This document shows, piece after piece, positions 2,981 to 8,843 of a stretch of DNA of 47,112 bases. The notes beneath the pieces are model-generated. The model was not told the DNA's origin and did not search any database. It saw only the letters and a program-made list of their open reading frames with translations. Origin of the DNA: Bacteroidales bacterium Bact_19 (lineage in GTDB: Bacteria; Bacteroidota; Bacteroidia; Bacteroidales; ML635J-15); the NCBI GenBank assembly GCA_001603595.1, contig LUZK01000052.1, positions 1 to 47,112 on the forward strand. Direction: 5' to 3'. Each line of letters begins with the position of its first letter. Position 1 is the stretch's first letter. Position numbers and translations under genes: made by a program.

Positions 2981-4006
2981 CTAATATTTATTACTATTGG
3001 CAAAAGCTACCAGCGACAACATAACAGGAACTTCAACCAGTACTCCTACAACCGTAACCATTGCTGCAGGGGATTGATATCCAAAAAGAACAATTGCGAC
3101 AGCTACTGCCAATTCAAAGAAATTACTTGCTCCAATCATTGCTGCCGGTGCACATGTGGCGTAGGGGAGCTTTATGAATTTTCCTATAACCCATGTGATA
3201 ATAAAAATAAAATAGGTTTGTAATATTAAAGGTACTGCAACAAGTAAGATAATAAACGGTTTTTGAGTAATAATCTCACCTTGAAAAGCAAATAATAATA
3301 TTAGTGTTACAAGTAATGCTCCTATTGAGAAAGGTCTAATTTTGTGTAACAAATTATTTTTCAGCCAATCTTCTCCCTTTGTTTTAATAACACTTCTATT
3401 TGTAATGTATCCGGCCACTAATGGAATCACCACAAAAACAATTACACTAGTAGCAAGAGTTTCATAGGGAATTTTAATATCTGTAATTCCGAGAAGCAAG
3501 CCTACTATTGGAACAAAAGCTACAAGAATGATTAAATCGTTAACAGATACTTGTACAAGTGTGTAGTTTGGATTTCCATCCGAAAGATATGACCAAACAA
3601 ATACCATTGCTGTACAAGGAGCTGCACCGAGCAAAATAGCTCCTGCTATATATTCACCTGCTTGTGCAGGGTCAATAAAAGCCGCATAAATCTTGGTGAA
3701 AAATATCCATGCAAAAAATGCCATCGTAAAAGGTTTTATCAACCAGTTTACTATGACTGTTAAGATAAGACCTTTAGGTTCTTTGCCTACTTTTTTTAAA
3801 CTTGTAAAATCTATCTGCAACATCATGGGATATATCATTAACCAAATAAGAATAGCAACAGGAATGTTTACATTGAAAATTTCCATTTCTGTTAAAAACT
3901 TGATTTTATCTCCGGCAAAATAGCCAATAGCAATACCTGCAGCTATACAAAGTGCTACCCAAATTGTTAGATATTTTTCGAAAAAAGCAATTTTCTTCTT
4001 TGCCAT
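2981..4006 (-). CDS. acr3: Acr3-family arsenite efflux permease
   Basis: This is a 341-residue integral membrane protein with about ten hydrophobic helices that exports arsenite (or antimonite) across the inner membrane, driven by the proton gradient. The Acr3 hallmarks are present: the helix-4 motif GAAPCTAMVFVWS with C131, and the glutamate in ASNFFELAVA (E298). These match the Cys and Glu that studies of Acr3 proteins found essential. Length is typical. It is the last gene of the ars operon and starts 6 bp after the arsC stop codon, so reduced arsenic made by ArsC can be exported directly. The reading frame is intact. It is often annotated arsB, but it belongs to the Acr3 (BASS/ACR3) family and not to the unrelated ArsB family. 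Confidence 0.95.
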   Translation of the reverse strand: MAKKKIAFFEKYLTIWVALCIAAGIAIGYFAGDKIKFLTEMEIFNVNIPVAILIWLMIYPMMLQIDFTSLKKVGKEPKGLILTVIVNWLIKPFTMAFFAWIFFTKIYAAFIDPAQAGEYIAGAILLGAAPCTAMVFVWSYLSDGNPNYTLVQVSVNDLIILVAFVPIVGLLLGITDIKIPYETLATSVIVFVVIPLVAGYITNRSVIKTKGEDWLKNNLLHKIRPFSIGALLVTLILLFAFQGEIITQKPFIILLVAVPLILQTYFIFIITWVIGKFIKLPYATCAPAAMIGASNFFELAVAVAIVLFGYQSPAAMVTVVGVLVEVPVMLSLVAFANSNKY

Positions 4007-4012
4007 AAAGAT

Positions 4013-4432
4013 TTATTTTTTGATGTTTTGTTCGTAAAATTCTTTAAAAGCCTGATAAATTTCTTCTCTTACTCTTCGGTACTCGCTCATAATAAATTCT
4101 TCTGAGCCGGTTGCATAAGTTGGGTCGTCAAAACCAATGTGCAATCTGTGTTTTACTTTACCTGGAAAAACCGGACAGTTTTCGTTTGCTCCACCACACA
4201 CGGTAATTACATAATCCCAGTCTTCGTTTAGATATTTTTCCACAGAGTCCGAAGTGTGGTGCGAAATATCGATCCCAACTTCTTTCATTACCTCTACAGC
4301 TTTGGGATTAAGTTTTCCGGTAGCTTCAGTACCAGCCGAACAGACAATTATATCTTTATCAAATGATTGCAAAAATCCGTGTGCCATTTGCGAACGACAA
4401 GAATTTCCCGTACATAAAATTAATATTTTCAT
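4013..4432 (-). CDS. arsC: Thioredoxin-coupled arsenate reductase ArsC
   Basis: The 139-residue protein belongs to the low-molecular-weight phosphatase-type arsenate reductases. The P-loop CTGNSCRS begins at C7 and ends in R13-S14. The two resolving cysteines are C79 and C86 in CGGANENC, spaced CX6C as in the staphylococcal plasmid enzyme. The catalytic aspartate is in the FDDP motif (D103). The enzyme reduces As(V) to As(III) through a C7/C79/C86 disulfide cascade and is recycled by thioredoxin, for which the small protein at 8555-8800 in the same operon is a candidate. It lies between an ArsF-like gene and acr3, with 6 bp to acr3. All catalytic residues are intact. Confidence 0.95.
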   Translation of the reverse strand: MKILILCTGNSCRSQMAHGFLQSFDKDIIVCSAGTEATGKLNPKAVEVMKEVGIDISHHTSDSVEKYLNEDWDYVITVCGGANENCPVFPGKVKHRLHIGFDDPTYATGSEEFIMSEYRRVREEIYQAFKEFYEQNIKK

Positions 4433-4443
4433 AAAAAATTGTT

Positions 4444-4851
4444 TTAGTCGCTTTTAATTAATTTTTCTATCTCTTGTGATAATATTTCTTTGAATTTTTC
4501 CGGTTTGTTAATTACATATTGAAATGCCATTTCCGTAAGATCAACATTTTTTATCTCATCTTTTGGATATACTAACAGCAGTGTTGATCCGTAGGCAAAA
4601 TATTTTTCAACAATTTTTTTATTTTCAGGATCTTCATAATCAAAATCTTTAAACTTTATTATTCCGTTTATAATTTCATCTTTAAAATCCTGAAATAACA
4701 CTAACTTAGTCTTATTTTCAATTTCCATGCATGTATTACATCTATGAGTGGCATGAAAATAGTAAACTATCACTTTTAGATTTTCATCTTTCTGCGAAAA
4801 TAAATTTATAAATATCAAAAGCAGAATTGGGATTAGCAGCAACTTTTTCAT
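4444..4851 (-). CDS. Exported thioredoxin-fold protein, ArsF-like (copy 1, CNTC)
   Basis: The 135-residue protein has an N-terminal signal peptide (residues 1-20, ending near FSQ). A thioredoxin-like core follows, with the strand VIVYYFHATHRC leading into a CxxC active site, C38-N-T-C41. It resembles the family that databases call ArsF-like, named after the arsEFG genes of Shewanella. That name implies a nitroreductase subunit, but the sequence itself shows only a small periplasmic thiol protein. A second β-strand segment (IIKFKDFDYED) and a YFAYGSTLLLVYP strand complete the fold. It is one of three relatives in the operon, with 5 bp to the lipoprotein copy and 11 bp to arsC. It probably handles thiol exchange in the periplasm, with electrons perhaps supplied by ArsG. 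Confidence 0.75.
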   Translation of the reverse strand: MKKLLLIPILLLIFINLFSQKDENLKVIVYYFHATHRCNTCMEIENKTKLVLFQDFKDEIINGIIKFKDFDYEDPENKKIVEKYFAYGSTLLLVYPKDEIKNVDLTEMAFQYVINKPEKFKEILSQEIEKLIKSD

Positions 4852-4856
4852 ATTGA

Positions 4857-5276
4857 CTAATTTTCAATATAATTATTAACTATACTTTCTATTTTTTCTT
4901 TTAGCAATTCTGGATTTCTTGTGGCATTTTGAAAAGCAAAACCTGTTATATCTTCAAACTCTGATTTCTTTATTATTAAAAGAACTGAACCGGCTACCTC
5001 ATATTTTTCAGCGAATTTTTTATAATAATTGTCTTCAATGTTGATGTCATAAAATGCGACATCATTATTTTTATTATACTTTGAATCATAAACTTCTTTA
5101 GCTACATCTCCAACTGCAATGCAAGTTGGGCAACGTCTTTCACCATGAAAATAAACAATACTAACTTTTTTTTCTAATTTGAATTCTTCATTTTCTGATT
5201 TTTTTTCTACCGAATTTTTACAAGAAACTAAAGCTATTAAGCAAACCAATGTGAAAATACCAATAAAATTTTTCAT
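4857..5276 (-). CDS. Lipoprotein thioredoxin-fold protein, ArsF-like (copy 2, CPTC)
   Basis: The 139-residue protein has a lipoprotein signal with lipobox ALVSC (C19) and a charged spacer. A thioredoxin-like domain follows, with strand VSIVYFHGERRC and active site C49-P-T-C52. It is clearly paralogous to the next gene: the shared pattern is VxYFHxxxRCxTC, then a second strand (VAFYDINIED) and a YEVAGSVLLII strand. This copy should be membrane-tethered, while copy 1 appears soluble in the periplasm. It starts 21 bp after the rhodanese-like gene and ends 5 bp before copy 1. The frame is intact. The role in the arsenic operon is inferred from position and from the CxxC pair. Confidence 0.75.
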   Translation of the reverse strand: MKNFIGIFTLVCLIALVSCKNSVEKKSENEEFKLEKKVSIVYFHGERRCPTCIAVGDVAKEVYDSKYNKNNDVAFYDINIEDNYYKKFAEKYEVAGSVLLIIKKSEFEDITGFAFQNATRNPELLKEKIESIVNNYIEN

Positions 5277-5297
5277 AATTTTTAAGTTTTATGAGTT

Positions 5298-5723
5298 TTA
5301 AATATCTTCATTTTTTAAATTTCTGTACTTTAATTGACAGGTACAAGAACCTGATAACATTTCTTTTATCTCTGTTAAAACCGGTAACCCTAATCTCTCC
5401 CAGTCGAGGATTCCTCCGGAAAGATTAAAAACATTTTTTAATCCTTTATTGTTCAAAAAAAATGTAACATCCTTACTGTTAAGTCCTGATGAGTCGGCGA
5501 TCAAATATACATGTTCAGCTTTCAATTCAGTAAATTTGTTTTCAATTTCTCCAATGGGAATGTAAATCACATTCGGCACATCGAACTTTTTATAGCTGAC
5601 CAGAGACGGATGTCTGATATCAACAATTATTAGTCCTTGCAAACAAAAATTGTAAGCATCGGTAGGTGATAGGCTGTTAACCAGTCCTGAATTAAAAACC
5701 TTTTTTAAAATTTCGTTTAACAT
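5298..5723 (-). CDS. Rhodanese-like protein lacking the catalytic cysteine
   Basis: The 141-residue protein has the single-domain rhodanese plan: VDIRHPS near 34-40 (the CH2A-like region), then the strand HVYLIADSSG near 71-80, and LSGGILDWERLGLPV at the end. In active sulfurtransferases the loop after that strand begins with cysteine (CxxGxR). Here the loop reads ADSSGLNS, so the usual persulfide-carrying Cys is absent. Two cysteines occur instead at the C-terminus as CTC (C127 and C129), with another at C27. The protein may bind rather than transfer sulfur or arsenic, or use the terminal CxC. It has no signal peptide. It lies 12 bp after the permease stop within the ars operon. Confidence 0.8.
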   Translation of the reverse strand: MLNEILKKVFNSGLVNSLSPTDAYNFCLQGLIIVDIRHPSLVSYKKFDVPNVIYIPIGEIENKFTELKAEHVYLIADSSGLNSKDVTFFLNNKGLKNVFNLSGGILDWERLGLPVLTEIKEMLSGSCTCQLKYRNLKNEDI

Positions 5724-5735
5724 TTATTTTTTTGT

Positions 5736-7084
5736 TTAAAATAACCAACCATATATTAATCCGGACAAAGTAGCCATTAAAGTAACCAGGGAGGCATATA
5801 CAATAGTTTTTTGTGTTCCGATAATACCTCTGATTACTAACATGTTAGGTAACGAAAGCGATGGTCAGGCCAGTAATAATGCCAAAGCAGGTCCTTTTCC
5901 CATCCCTGATGATAACAACCCTTGAACTATCGGAACTTCAGTTAGTGTTGCAAAATACATAAAAGCTCCTACAACAGATGCAAAAAGATTAGAAAAAACG
6001 CTATTACCACCAACAAGAGAACTAATCCATTCAGAAGGAATTATACCCGGTATGTTTGTGGTGTCGTGAGTAGACCCTAATAAGAAGCCTGCAATAACAA
6101 CTCCTATAGCAAGTAATGGAATTATTTGTTTTGCAAAATCCCAGGTTGATAATGTCCATGATTTATTATCAAGATCGTTTTTATCGAATATAGTGATTAT
6201 GCTTATTGCTGAAATGCCAACTATCATGGGAATTAAAGGTGCAAATTTTATATTATCTATGAAATTAAATGATAAAACTGCTGATAATCCTGTAACGAAA
6301 AACCCTGCAATGACCCATTGCCATTTAATTTTCAAAATAAATATTAACGAAAACATTAGAATAATTCCTAATCCGCCAGTAATAAGCCACTTATTTGACC
6401 ATATATTAAACCACAATCCTGAATTATTATCGTTTACGGGAGCTCCCCAGTTGGCAAAAACTAAAATCAATACTAATGTGAAAAAATGAATAGCTGTTTG
6501 CCATAATGGTCTTTTTCCCGGGGGGCAACGATGTTCATTTGTTCTTCTTTTTTCTGACTTTCTTCTTTTCGATAGATTAAAGACATGATTACTCCTATAA
6601 TAATGCTAAAAAATACAGCTCCGAAAACTCTTGCGATTCCCATTTCAAATCCTAATATACGTGCGGTTAAAATTATTGCAAGAATATTGATGGCAGGTCC
6701 GGAATATAAAAATGCAATAGCGGGACCTAATCCGGCACCTCTTTTATGAATGCTCGAAAATAAAGGTAAAATAGTGCAAGAACATACTGCCAGAATAGTT
6801 CCAGAAACAGCTGCAACAGTATAAGAAACCCATTTTTTTGCATTAGCTCCAAAGTATTTTATTACCGCTGCCTGACTAATAAAAACCGAAATTACCCCAG
6901 CAATAAAAAAAGCTGGTAGTAAGCATAAAATCACATGTTCACGAGCATACCATTTTACTAAATCTAAGCTTGCATATATTGCGGTGTTAAATCTTTCACT
7001 TTCTATCGGAAGAAAAAAGGCAAATAAAAATATTACAATAATCCATCCTAAAATCTTAAACTCCTTACTTTTTTCCATGTACAT
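5736..7084 (-). pseudogene. ArsP/DUF318-type permease, frameshifted and with in-frame TGA
   Basis: The gene would encode a permease of about 449 residues (COG0701/PF03773 type) with two homologous halves. The first half (7084 to about 6525) contains CSCTILPLF and FLYSGPAINILAI. The second (about 6520 to 5736) contains ALALLLA-stop-PSLSLPNMLVI. The frame breaks in a run of six C on the minus strand (6520-6525). With one extra C it reads APPGKRPLWQTAIHFF and joins the second half smoothly. A TGA at 5865-5867 then interrupts the second half, after which the frame stays open for 42 codons to TAA at 5736-5738. The internal repeat (SGPAI against A-stop-PSL) shows that the lost residue was glycine, so GGA became TGA. 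The family exports metalloids or metals. The gene starts 4 bp after the arsG stop. Confidence 0.85.
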
Positions 7085-7088
7085 GTAA

Positions 7089-7816
7089 TTATAAAATTAA
7101 ATTTTTTATAAAAAATATCCAGACATAATATAAACCAATTAATATGAAAGTAACCGAAACAAATCTTCTGAACCAAAGTTCAAACAATTTTATTTTATTG
7201 TAAGTTTTTCCAATACTTGATACACTGTAAGCCAATATCCAAGAAAATATAATTACGGGAATTTCTGTAGCAATTGCAAATACCGCAGGTAAAAAATATC
7301 CTCCCGATGATGCAACCGAAAGTGGGATTAATCCTCCAAATACAAAACTCCACTATATGGGCAAAATGCTAGAGCAAAAATAATACCCATCAAAAATGAG
7401 TTTAAATTATTAGCTTTGGTTAATTTTTCACTAATTTTCCCATTATTACTCCGTAACGAAAACTTTATTTTTATTACATCAAGCATAAACAATCCAATAA
7501 AAAGTAATAAGGGACCAATAAAATACTCTCCGTAAGAATTAAAAAATTTATTAATTTTATAAATTCCACTACCTTGACGCAGCAGATATATTAGAATAAC
7601 TCCCAAAACAGTATAAGAAACAAGTCTTCCTATTGTGTAGAACAATCCATAAATAAAAACCTTGTTTCTGTTTTCCAGTTCTTTGCTTATAAATCCTATT
7701 GCCGAAATATTTGTAGCAAGAGGACATGGACTTATTGCTGTTATAAGTCCCAAAAAGAAAGCAGCTAAAATTGGAATTTCAGAGTTATAAGCTATGTTTT
7801 GAAAAAGATCTATCAT
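7089..7816 (-). pseudogene. arsG: CcdA-like transporter ArsG, with a one-base frameshift
   Basis: The protein would have 242 residues and six hydrophobic helices, resembling CcdA/DsbD thiol-electron transporters. Both redox cysteines are visible, in SPCPLATN (C31) and AFCPYSG (C152). The first frame runs to GVLYLED and stops at 7328. Adding one T to the TTT run (7338-7340 on the plus strand, AAA) restores YFGGLIPLSVASSGGYF and continues for about 80 further residues to TAA at 7089-7091. The name ArsG is used for this CcdA-like group in arsenic operons, where it is described as an aromatic arsenical efflux permease. Electron transfer to the exported CxxC proteins is an equally good reading. 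Its ATG overlaps the TGA of the preceding gene (ATGA at 7813-7816), which indicates translational coupling. Confidence 0.85.
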
Positions 7817-8235
7817 GATTTGCTATTAATGGCTTTTTTCTTAACAATATTTTTTTTGATTTCTAAAACAAGTTCTTGTTCACGCAATTTTTTATCCTCA
7901 TTACTAGCAATTTGATAGTTTCTTACAAAATTTGTAAGGTTATAGTCAAGCACTTTCTTTTTTTGATTAACAATCAATATGCATGTTTGTGATTTTGCTT
8001 GATATTTTTCTACCAATTCCTTATTTTCCGGGGCATCAATTAAAATAGTTTTAAATACAACATCTTCGGGTTTAAAATTTGATTCAATTATTTTCTTAAT
8101 TTCTGCTTCCAAAGCATTGCAACTTCTAGCTTGACAACAACTCAGTTTTGCTTTGAAATACATAAATTCAGCTTTTTGAGAAAATAAACTAAAACTCAAC
8201 ATTAACATAATCACTATTAAATTCAATTTTTTCAT
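7813..8235 (-). CDS. Exported thioredoxin-fold protein, ArsF-like (copy 3, CC-x4-C)
   Basis: The 140-residue protein has a signal peptide (1-20, ending FSQ). Its first strand, FMYFKAKLSCCQARSC, matches the VYYFHxxxRCxxC strand of the two other ArsF-like proteins. The later segments also align: FKTILIDAPENKELVEKY with FYDINIEDNYYKKFAEKY, and QTCILIV with SVLLIIK. The cysteine pattern differs, with C33, C34 and C39 in place of a CxxC plus a further Cys in SQTCILIV. It is therefore a divergent third member, perhaps a metalloid-binding rather than a disulfide-exchange form. The gene follows arsR by 24 bp and overlaps arsG by 4 bp (ATGA), so ArsG is its likely membrane partner. Confidence 0.7.
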   Translation of the reverse strand: MKKLNLIVIMLMLSFSLFSQKAEFMYFKAKLSCCQARSCNALEAEIKKIIESNFKPEDVVFKTILIDAPENKELVEKYQAKSQTCILIVNQKKKVLDYNLTNFVRNYQIASNEDKKLREQELVLEIKKNIVKKKAINSKS

Positions 8236-8259
8236 AGTATAGTAATTTCTTTTATATTA

Positions 8260-8562
8260 TTAATCATTTAATAATTCACTGAAAATATTCTTTAATTTTT
8301 CCCATTCATAAGTGTTTAAACAATATTTTATGAATGGAGGTTCAATCTCACCTTGAATCAGACCTACATATTTTAATTCTTTTAAGTGTTGTGATAGTGT
8401 TGATCGTTTAATTGGCAACTCATCTACTAAATCACCACTGTAACAGCAAGAGTTCATTTTTGATAATTTTTTAAGAATATAAATCCTTACAGGATGAGCA
8501 AGTGCTTTGGCGTACTTAGCCATTAGCAAAACATCCTCAGAATAATTTGTTCTATTATTCAT
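8260..8562 (-). CDS. arsR: ArsR-family metalloid-responsive repressor
   Basis: The 100-residue protein is a winged-helix ArsR/SmtB repressor. The recognition helix is visible in IKRSTLSQHLKELK (51-64), preceded by the family signature KALAHPVRIYILKKL (19-33). A vicinal cysteine pair C39-C40 lies just before the DNA-binding helices, and C81 is nearby; these are candidate As(III) ligands. The protein should repress the operon until arsenite binds. The ATG at 8562 overlaps the stop codon of the upstream thioredoxin-like gene by 8 bp. The probable operator is the inverted repeat at 8822-8843, which covers the operon's -7 box. Length is typical. Confidence 0.92.
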   Translation of the reverse strand: MNNRTNYSEDVLLMAKYAKALAHPVRIYILKKLSKMNSCCYSGDLVDELPIKRSTLSQHLKELKYVGLIQGEIEPPFIKYCLNTYEWEKLKNIFSELLND

Positions 8563-8800
8563 TTAAATTCACTTCTATTATTTTTTTAAACTCATCTTTA
8601 CTCGGAACGTACCCTTTTAAAACAACCTTGTTGTTTATTACTAAACCGGGAGTAATCATTATACCGTAATTCATAATTTCAACAATATCTTCTACTTTTG
8701 CTATGCTTGCCTTAATGTTGTTTTCTTCTACAACTGTTTCAACTAATCGGTGTAATTGTTTGCATTTCGCACAACCTGGACCTAATACTTTTATTTCCAT
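8555..8800 (-). CDS. Small cytoplasmic thioredoxin-like protein (redox-active disulfide protein 2 type)
   Basis: The 81-residue protein has the short thioredoxin/glutaredoxin fold of the TM0996/MTH895 group. It shows the CxxC site C10-A-K-C13 in GPGCAKCKQL, the cis-proline motif MITPGLVINNKVV, and no signal peptide. It is the first gene of the arsenic operon. It most likely supplies electrons to ArsC, which needs a thioredoxin, and possibly to the membrane protein ArsG. It ends inside the arsR start (8-bp overlap), which points to coupled translation. The promoter lies 29-58 bp upstream of its ATG. Confidence 0.88.
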   Translation of the reverse strand: MEIKVLGPGCAKCKQLHRLVETVVEENNIKASIAKVEDIVEIMNYGIMITPGLVINNKVVLKGYVPSKDEFKKIIEVNLNE

Positions 8801-8821: not shown

Positions 8822-8843
8822 TATTTCGCAAAATTACGAAATA
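8822..8843. promoter_or_regulatory. Candidate ArsR operator
   Basis: A perfect 7-bp inverted repeat, TATTTCG (8822-8828) and CGAAATA (8837-8843), is separated by 8 bp. The 8 bp are exactly the -7 box of the ars promoter (CAAAATTA on the plus strand). A repressor dimer bound here would block the promoter, which is the usual mode of ArsR proteins. Confidence 0.7.

Follow-up and report, generated by a model that had tools for sequence, protein, structure and literature searches.

The arsEFG genes were reportedly the subject of work by Chen, Zhang and Rosen in 2019. In NCBIfam, ArsE is named a thioredoxin, ArsF a 'nitroreductase subunit' and ArsG an 'efflux permease'; in an ars operon of Bacteroides vulgatus, arsR is followed by three genes without a known function, which may be arsEFG. 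According to the introduction of PMC9144182, ArsG has been shown to be an efflux transporter, and ArsE and ArsF confer resistance to organoarsenicals. Passages of Castillo and Saier 2010 (PMC2963123) describe CcdA together with a thioredoxin and a redox-active disulfide protein 2 in ars operons, genes of these kinds being reported in eight instances from seven organisms. In the same passages electron transfer by CcdA to the periplasm is mentioned, the gene set is tied to the cytosolic ArsC, and electron flow across the membrane is raised and then judged less likely; the name ArsG does not occur in them. The ScsB-ScsC copper system, as presented in passages of PMC8900818, resembles the arrangement proposed below in that a DsbD-like membrane protein maintains the reduced state of an exported metal-binding protein with a thioredoxin fold, and differs from it in the metal, in the periplasmic domains that ScsB has of its own, and in the cis-Pro and CxxC that ScsC retains. 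In ArsD of E. coli R773, Cys12, Cys13 and Cys18 are essential for the chaperone function (passages of PMC4562236). Within the literature searched, which included few subscription papers and was in part available as passages, the relay idea was raised only by PMC2963123 and the ArsF classes distinguished here were not described; the word 'arsEFG' occurred in reference lists only, and no paper joining ArsG, arsenic and thioredoxin was found.

The locus analyzed here lies in a window of 47,112 nucleotides (the whole stretch of DNA that was analyzed) from Bacteroidales bacterium Bact_19 and is a known type of arsenic-resistance operon, holding the arsEFG module as named in NCBIfam. As in arsEFG, the same three families are recognized by the NCBIfam models, and they are co-located and co-occurring, but here three ArsF paralogues are present, one of them from a class that scores under the ArsF cut-off, together with a permease, a rhodanese-like protein, ArsC and Acr3. 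The kinds of genes are also those in the passages of PMC2963123, beyond which ArsF export, the ArsF classes and co-occurrence counts are added here. The sequence evidence favours a relay over the permease and the other NCBIfam names for arsEFG, and the module of this operon probably serves as a dedicated thiol relay resembling DsbD/CcdA. Rather doubtful is the more specific proposal that ArsG is misnamed as a permease and that arsEFG forms a transmembrane electron relay with an ArsD-like three-thiol As(III) trap, the class B ArsF, at its exported end; this would be a chaperone system for arsenic outside the cytoplasm, held active by a CcdA-type reductase of its own, as the arsenic counterpart of ScsB-ScsC.

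Operon layout and broken frames

The operon consists of ten minus-strand genes (8800-2981) with a single operator in front (Table 1). It had been predicted to hold a standard ArsR, ArsC and Acr3 within 4444-8800; all three are present, with ArsC and Acr3 outside that interval, at 4432-2981. The gene set first described is real, but the ArsP_1 permease, the rhodanese-like gene and the broken frames had been missed. The predicted ATGA overlap was found, the third ArsF copy (ending at 7813) and arsG (starting at 7816) sharing four bases. ArsR scores 50.9 bits against NF033788, under the cut-off of 55, and ArsC scores 139.2 bits against its best NCBIfam model, TIGR02691, under the cut-off of 174.3. 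The rhodanese-like protein has the loop ADSSG, without Cys, and the C-terminal tail SGSCTCQL; similar tails occur in 13 of 26 rhodanese-like rows (window copy counted).

Table 1. Features of the arsenic operon, with positions in the window and model scores
Feature	Position	Strand	Model score (cut-off) or location
Acr3 arsenite efflux transporter	2981..4006	-	TIGR00832 387.7 bits (282.8)
ArsC arsenate reductase, thioredoxin type	4013..4432	-	PF01451 (LMWPc) 74 bits (23.2)
ArsF class A, soluble exported, CNTC	4444..4851	-	NF040494 106 bits (60)
ArsF class A, lipoprotein-like, CPTC	4857..5276	-	NF040494 84.9 bits (60)
Rhodanese-like protein	5298..5723	-	PF00581 34 bits (22.2)
ArsP_1-type permease	5739..7084	-	PF03773 148.6 bits (32.3), N-terminal part
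ArsG, CcdA/DsbD-type membrane protein	7107..7816	-	PF13386 52.8 (24.9), PF02683 32.9 (27.1)
ArsF class B, exported thioredoxin fold, CC-x4-C	7813..8235	-	NF040494 43.5 bits, under cut-off (60)
ArsR/SmtB repressor	8260..8562	-	PF01022 39.4 bits (22)
ArsE, small cytosolic thioredoxin-like protein	8555..8800	-	TIGR00412 (ArsE/MTH895) 109.1 bits (62)
Operator TTTCG-N8-CGAAA	8824..8841	.	24 bases upstream of arsE

The Bacteroidota -7 element is TAnnTTTG, and the inner eight bases of the operator, read on the gene strand (TAATTTTG), match it. Sites of this type numbered 59 in 101 sequences, about 1.5 being expected from composition; 45 of the 59, in 35 of the 101 sequences, have an operon gene no more than 150 bases downstream.

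The frame of arsG is lost near 7340, directly after C152, and the remainder continues in another frame to about 7107. In the permease gene, which lies between arsG and the rhodanese-like gene, the frame is lost near 6512-6563 and an in-frame stop is found at 5865-5867. Both genes are intact in locus L146, from the same genus and with the same gene order. No split gene was noticed outside the operon in an unsystematic look at the ORF listing of the window, so the damage looks local, whether through genuine decay or through an error of assembly at this locus. Since ArsG looks broken here, the relay may be dead in this genome or served by a separate DsbD-type gene; a second gene, of DsbD type, was found in all 31 family genomes searched. 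The chances are about even that the module is decaying in this genome, with ArsG and the permease dead and only the soluble genes still useful: three disruptions fall in two adjacent genes and an intact second permease is present elsewhere in the genome, whereas local errors are possible in a draft assembly of 186 contigs and the remaining eight operon frames are open.

Sequence features of ArsG

The window fragment of ArsG clears the curated cut-offs of the Pfam families DsbD_2 and DsbD_TM and reaches 187.7 bits against NF040495, under the cut-off of 200, the frame being broken there; this cut-off is exceeded in 13 of 31 family genomes, with 292.5 bits in L146. At E 0.001, PF13386 was matched by 33 of 33 ArsG relatives and PF02683 by 17 of 33, and no other family by any of the 33 except SfLAP by one. 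The sole PDB match of the ArsG profile at E ≤1 was CcdA (5vkv, E 0.0012). The fold model of ArsG was weak (pLDDT 66.3), and a structure search with it found nothing.

CcdA/DsbD proteins have six helices, an N-out orientation and an inverted repeat. The loop charges of ArsG mostly fit a six-helix protein with both termini outside: loops 1, 3 and 5 are positive, and the termini and loop 4 are not; loop 2, which is expected outside, is also slightly positive. A CcdA-like protein with the cysteines C31 and C152 had been predicted; both are seen in ArsG, at the CcdA positions, one in each repeat half. Exactly two cysteines at these positions were found in 89 of 98 ArsG-like rows (the set counts one operon twice and includes a row of DsbD size and a row that falls outside the ArsG clade), a count that is biased because 80 of the loci were retrieved by patterns containing these cysteines. 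Each of 15 relatives found by profile contains just two cysteines, together with the second motif, the first motif lying within the first 50 residues in 14 and after a longer N-terminus in the fifteenth.

Proposed electron route and its alternatives

In the proposed relay, a cytosolic thioredoxin, perhaps ArsE, would reduce the cysteine pair of ArsG, and exported ArsF proteins of class A would receive electrons from ArsG across the membrane. These proteins would keep exported thiols reduced, among them the three-cysteine class B ArsF. Outside the cytoplasm, class B would hold the trivalent arsenic delivered there by Acr3 and the ArsP-type permease. The relay topology of the original prediction (a cytosolic CxxC protein, a CcdA-type membrane protein with its two cysteines, and exported thioredoxin folds) draws support from family scores, cysteine conservation and co-occurrence, but arsG is broken here.

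The cytoplasmic CxxC thioredoxin-like protein that had been expected is ArsE, which carries CAKC and, at the cis-Pro place, a TP motif (ITPG), and scores 97.9 bits against PF13192 (cut-off 24.8). The predicted step from ArsE to ArsG is weaker, as ArsE also stands beside a permease without ArsF and ArsG: it adjoins an ArsP-type permease, with no annotated ArsF or ArsG, in 4 of 4 plasmids examined outside Bacteroidota, and a second ArsE-permease pair of this kind is found in this genome under the same operator type. Both observations would suit two systems in one operon, with ArsE serving the ArsP_1 permease and an ArsG-ArsF relay fed by a general thioredoxin. ArsE and ArsF are close in 55 of 58 ArsG loci (2.5 kb on both sides); against this rather unlikely division, 7 of the 55 have no permease found in that range.

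On the outer side of the proposed thiol relay, the three exported proteins of the original prediction were recovered with export signals and with the motifs CNTC, CPTC and CC-x4-C as described; the CPTC copy carries a lipobox-like LVSC. A structure model and structure search gave a thioredoxin fold for ArsF (class B model pLDDT 90.8), and in a crude test 109 of 110 class A rows and all 15 class B rows showed a hydrophobic N-terminus. Class B is a clade of 15 rows (support 100/98) in which C33, C34 and C39 are invariant (15/15) and the CxxC spacing is lost; class A rows are mostly RCxTC, and one ArsF-like row (G584) has no CxxC at all. Both classes occur together in 14 of 18 class B sequences examined, and class B with no class A in its neighbourhood also occurs. 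Pro was found at the cis-Pro column in 0 of 121 ArsF rows (106 class A, four of the 110 being left out as ordinary thioredoxins, and 15 class B). The missing cis-proline may suit thiolate chemistry with arsenic, which is only suggestive because the copper-binding ScsC retains its cis-Pro.

The CC-x4-C of class B has the spacing of the As(III) site of ArsD, rows of which read CCPTGLC in L172 and L173; unlike ArsD, ArsF is exported. That class B is true ArsD was rejected at the family level, as the 15 members gave no ArsD profile match (PF06953 being absent from the 25 families listed for them at E 0.1). An hhalign comparison of class B with a two-sequence ArsD alignment gave a probability of 0.3%, which is not significant; the absence of ArsD among the 50 matches listed in each of two structure searches proves nothing.

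The CxTC of most class A rows, a supply of electrons from a CcdA-type protein, and arsM (arsenite methyltransferase; 342 bits, cut-off 263) or a relative in 20 of 101 sequences, which points to organoarsenicals in some clusters, would also be expected if the ArsF proteins served not to bind trivalent arsenic but to reduce pentavalent or thiolated arsenicals outside the cytoplasm. This is improbable in view of the missing cis-Pro, the lost CxxC spacing in class B, and the reduction of arsenate already inside the cell by ArsC. A nitroreductase for aromatic arsenicals made of ArsE and ArsF, with ArsG as efflux permease for the amino products, agrees with the NCBIfam names and with the statement cited from the introduction of PMC9144182, but is quite improbable, since ArsF has a thioredoxin fold with no flavin-enzyme family among the Pfam and NCBIfam tables of the three window copies, the ArsG relatives match DsbD families, and an export signal is present in ArsF and absent from ArsE, which should place the two on either side of the membrane.

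Distribution of the module

Among 393 genomes sampled in the order of the window, ArsF (E ≤1e-6) and ArsG (E ≤1e-30) occurred together in 209, ArsF only in 9, ArsG only in 7, and neither in 168. Chance association of the module genes was rejected, the same module being found in many genomes (Fisher p ~2e-89, related genomes not being independent). As to ArsF without a CcdA-like partner, a case raised originally, ArsG was present in 209 of the 218 ArsF genomes and missing from nine: in three of these the contig stops directly after ArsF or ArsF-ArsE, in one ArsG is shortened, and in five no ArsG adjoins ArsF. ArsF clusters without ArsG were also seen in G226, from the phylum sample (ArsR-Perm-ArsE-ArsF-Acr3-ArsC, no CcdA nearby), and in G464, so the requirement for ArsG is close to strict but has exceptions. 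ArsF and ArsG stand under names implying nitroreduction and efflux; if the thiol relay is real, a common arsenic module has been given the wrong function, and defence against arsenic would include a powered thiol system beyond the cytoplasm.

A search with the window fragment of ArsG turned up no viral relatives. A plasmid search with ArsG yielded 22 records, one with an annotated ArsG (Prevotella nigrescens); among the other 21, all weaker, the one examined (Paenibacillus) has a non-arsenic setting, and a plasmid search with ArsF yielded the Prevotella record only. ArsG loci were seen in Bacteroides, Porphyromonas and further named lineages, and on a Prevotella plasmid.

Layout and damage of the ars operon

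Open reading frame and family searches of the window identified ten minus-strand genes, with gaps between neighbours of about 25 bases or less when broken genes are counted at full extent. The module is of a known kind (arsEFG), in an extended form. Window translations bore out the cysteine motifs that the original prediction had given for the exported proteins and ArsE, as well as C31 and C152 of ArsG, and the 4-base overlap of the third ArsF copy with arsG was also correct. Overlooked at that stage were the loss of frame in arsG near 7340 and, in the permease gene, a loss of frame near 6512-6563 together with an in-frame stop at 5865-5867. In an informal look at the ORF listing no split genes were noticed in the remainder of the window, and a congeneric genome (G025, locus L146) has the identical gene order with both arsG and permease intact. 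The membrane part of the proposed relay, in which electrons would pass from thioredoxin via ArsG to the exported ArsF proteins, is broken in this genome as sequenced. The rhodanese-like protein (window 5298-5723) has a loop without Cys and an SGSCxCQL-like C-terminal tail, which recurs in 13 of the 26 rhodanese-like rows from these loci and is possibly metalloid-binding.

Coordinates of the operon and of the operator sites in the window and in L167, another contig of the same genome
Feature	Position	Strand	Description
Gene order	8800-2981	-	arsE, arsR, arsF (class B), arsG, ArsP_1-type permease, rhodanese-like, arsF (class A) x2, arsC, acr3
Operator TTTCG-N8-CGAAA	window 8824-8841		pattern search
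Operator TTTCG-N8-CGAAA	L167:6060-6077		precedes second arsE-permease pair

ArsG as a CcdA-type protein and its occurrence with ArsF

In NCBIfam the small protein is named MTH895/ArsE family, the exported proteins 'nitrophenyl compound nitroreductase subunit ArsF' and the membrane protein 'aromatic aminobenezylarsenical efflux permease ArsG'; the names reportedly go back to Chen, Zhang and Rosen 2019. The introduction of a later paper states that ArsG has been shown to be an efflux transporter (PMC9144182). The relay idea is itself not wholly new, since Castillo and Saier 2010 (PMC2963123) raise transmembrane electron flow in such operons and then discount it.

The ArsG fragment of the window scored above both Pfam DsbD cut-offs. 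Among its 33 relatives in alignment A5 (E 0.001), PF13386 matched all, PF02683 17 and SfLAP one, with no further families listed, and the single match of the ArsG profile in the PDB was CcdA (5vkv, E 0.0012). In 89 of 98 ArsG-like rows there are just two cysteines, which fall in the first and the fourth helix region respectively. The 98 rows include one operon twice, the DsbD-sized row of locus L072 and a divergent CcdA-like row of locus L137; 80 ArsG loci had been found via patterns containing both cysteines, which biases such counts, and 15 rows from profile-found genomes were therefore checked separately. Each of the 15 had the second motif and no cysteines beyond the two; the first motif lay within 50 residues in 14 and after a longer N-terminus in the 15th. 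Loops 1, 3 and 5 are net positive, the termini and loop 4 are not, and the charges would mostly fit an N-out, C-out protein, the slightly positive loop 2 being the poorer fit. The predicted structure was too weak to add support. On the sequence evidence, a transmembrane thiol relay is better supported than an efflux permease.

Searches of the 31 genomes of the family (E up to 1e-6) gave ArsF and ArsE in 15 genomes each and ArsG in 14. The three sets coincide apart from G027, where ArsG is missing and ArsF lies on a contig of 3.6 kb. Each of the 31 also has a DsbD_TM gene separate from the ArsG locus (open frames of 341 to 758 residues). For the order, 393 genomes were scored, with matches accepted up to E 1e-6 for ArsF and up to E 1e-30 for ArsG. 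ArsF occurred in 218 (213 above the cut-off) and ArsG in 216 (207 above the cut-off); 209 had both, nine ArsF only, seven ArsG only and 168 neither. In three of the nine ArsF-only genomes (G687, G706, G557) the sequence breaks off at a contig end directly after ArsF or ArsF-ArsE, and G544 has an ArsG shortened inside. No ArsG was found beside ArsF in the other five (G363, G423, G464, G477, G584), of which G363 and G477 have the upstream side cut by a contig end and ArsF matches below the cut-off. In the phylum sample (296 genomes) ArsF exceeded the cut-off in eight, five of them with ArsG above its own; the remaining three were the window's genome (ArsG broken), G190 and G226. The expectation that ArsF comes with a CcdA-like partner held for the 209 of 218 order genomes with ArsG; exceptions include the five genomes in which none was found beside ArsF and, in the phylum sample, G226, whose cluster (ArsR-Perm-ArsE-ArsF-Acr3-ArsC) contains no CcdA-like gene.

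The ArsF cluster of G190 (L137) has two arsE, a CcdA-like protein that does not group with the ArsG clade, encoded about 1.1 kb beyond the second arsE, and a further exported thioredoxin (CIPC) between; a partner swap is possible. G190 also has a lone second ArsF.

Exported ArsF proteins

The 129 ArsF rows (one operon twice) comprised 110 of class A (mostly RCxTC), 15 of class B (CC-x4-C) and four unclassified; four class A rows were ordinary exported thioredoxins with cis-Pro and were dropped, leaving 106. Class B forms a single clade (support 100/98), and its model has a thioredoxin fold (pLDDT 90.8). In the tree the window's three ArsF copies each cluster with the corresponding copy from the same genus, and the three are therefore old paralogues. 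Class A accompanied class B in 14 of 18 sequences overall. The first set accounts for 13 of these, out of 14 loci (the remaining one being a 3.6 kb contig), and the exceptions set for one, L160; class B stood alone in L162 and L165 (short contigs) and in L166 (9 kb).

Pro was absent from the cis-Pro column in all 106 class A and 15 class B rows, the residue being mostly Gln or Ser (Gln in 15 of 15 class B rows). This absence is suggestive only, because copper-binding ScsC, unlike ArsF, keeps its cis-Pro, as described in PMC8900818. The class B site has the same spacing as Cys12, Cys13 and Cys18 of ArsD, stated to be essential for its chaperone role (PMC4562236); class B proteins as ArsD were ruled out by profile. 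For the putative arsenic role of the exported proteins, trivalent arsenic binding is the first choice and reduction, the other function originally proposed, the second. Besides classes A and B, loci L096, L086, L104 and L150 encode exported thioredoxins of a third type, which have the ordinary cis-Pro and form a separate clade.

Gene neighbourhoods, operator and mobility

Using profiles built in this analysis, 58 ArsG loci flanked on each side by 2.5 kb or more were compared. ArsE and ArsF were close by in 55 (48 with and seven without a permease); two of the other three had ArsF only and one a permease only. Outside Bacteroidota, ArsE adjoined a permease, with ArsF and ArsG not annotated, in all four plasmids inspected, drawn from 145 records with an ArsE match; ArsE therefore has a second, perhaps older, partner. 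ArsD and an ATPase gene, presumably ArsA-like, stand beside ArsG in loci L172 and L173, from both ArsD-bearing genomes among 60 of the order.

The window and 100 loci (1.26 Mb) contain 59 matches to the pattern TTTCG-N8-CGAAA, against about 1.5 expected from composition, 0-9 for the same arm letters reordered and 1-8 for other spacings. Of these sites, 45 precede an operon gene by at most 150 bases, and 35 of the 101 sequences have at least one site so placed; the loci are kin to one another and the sites not independent. In the nearest relative (L146) the site matches in part only. The pattern is a predicted conserved operator marking this regulon. The arsE-permease pair on L167 is intact (ArsE 111 bits, cut-off 62), and since the same operator precedes it, its permease is likely a stand-in for the window's broken one under the same regulator.

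A Prevotella nigrescens plasmid (L170, NZ_CP072340.1) carries an ArsR-like regulator, ArsF, ArsG, thioredoxin, permease, ArsC and Acr3. The stretch also holds a relaxase and an integrase, and the module may therefore be mobile.
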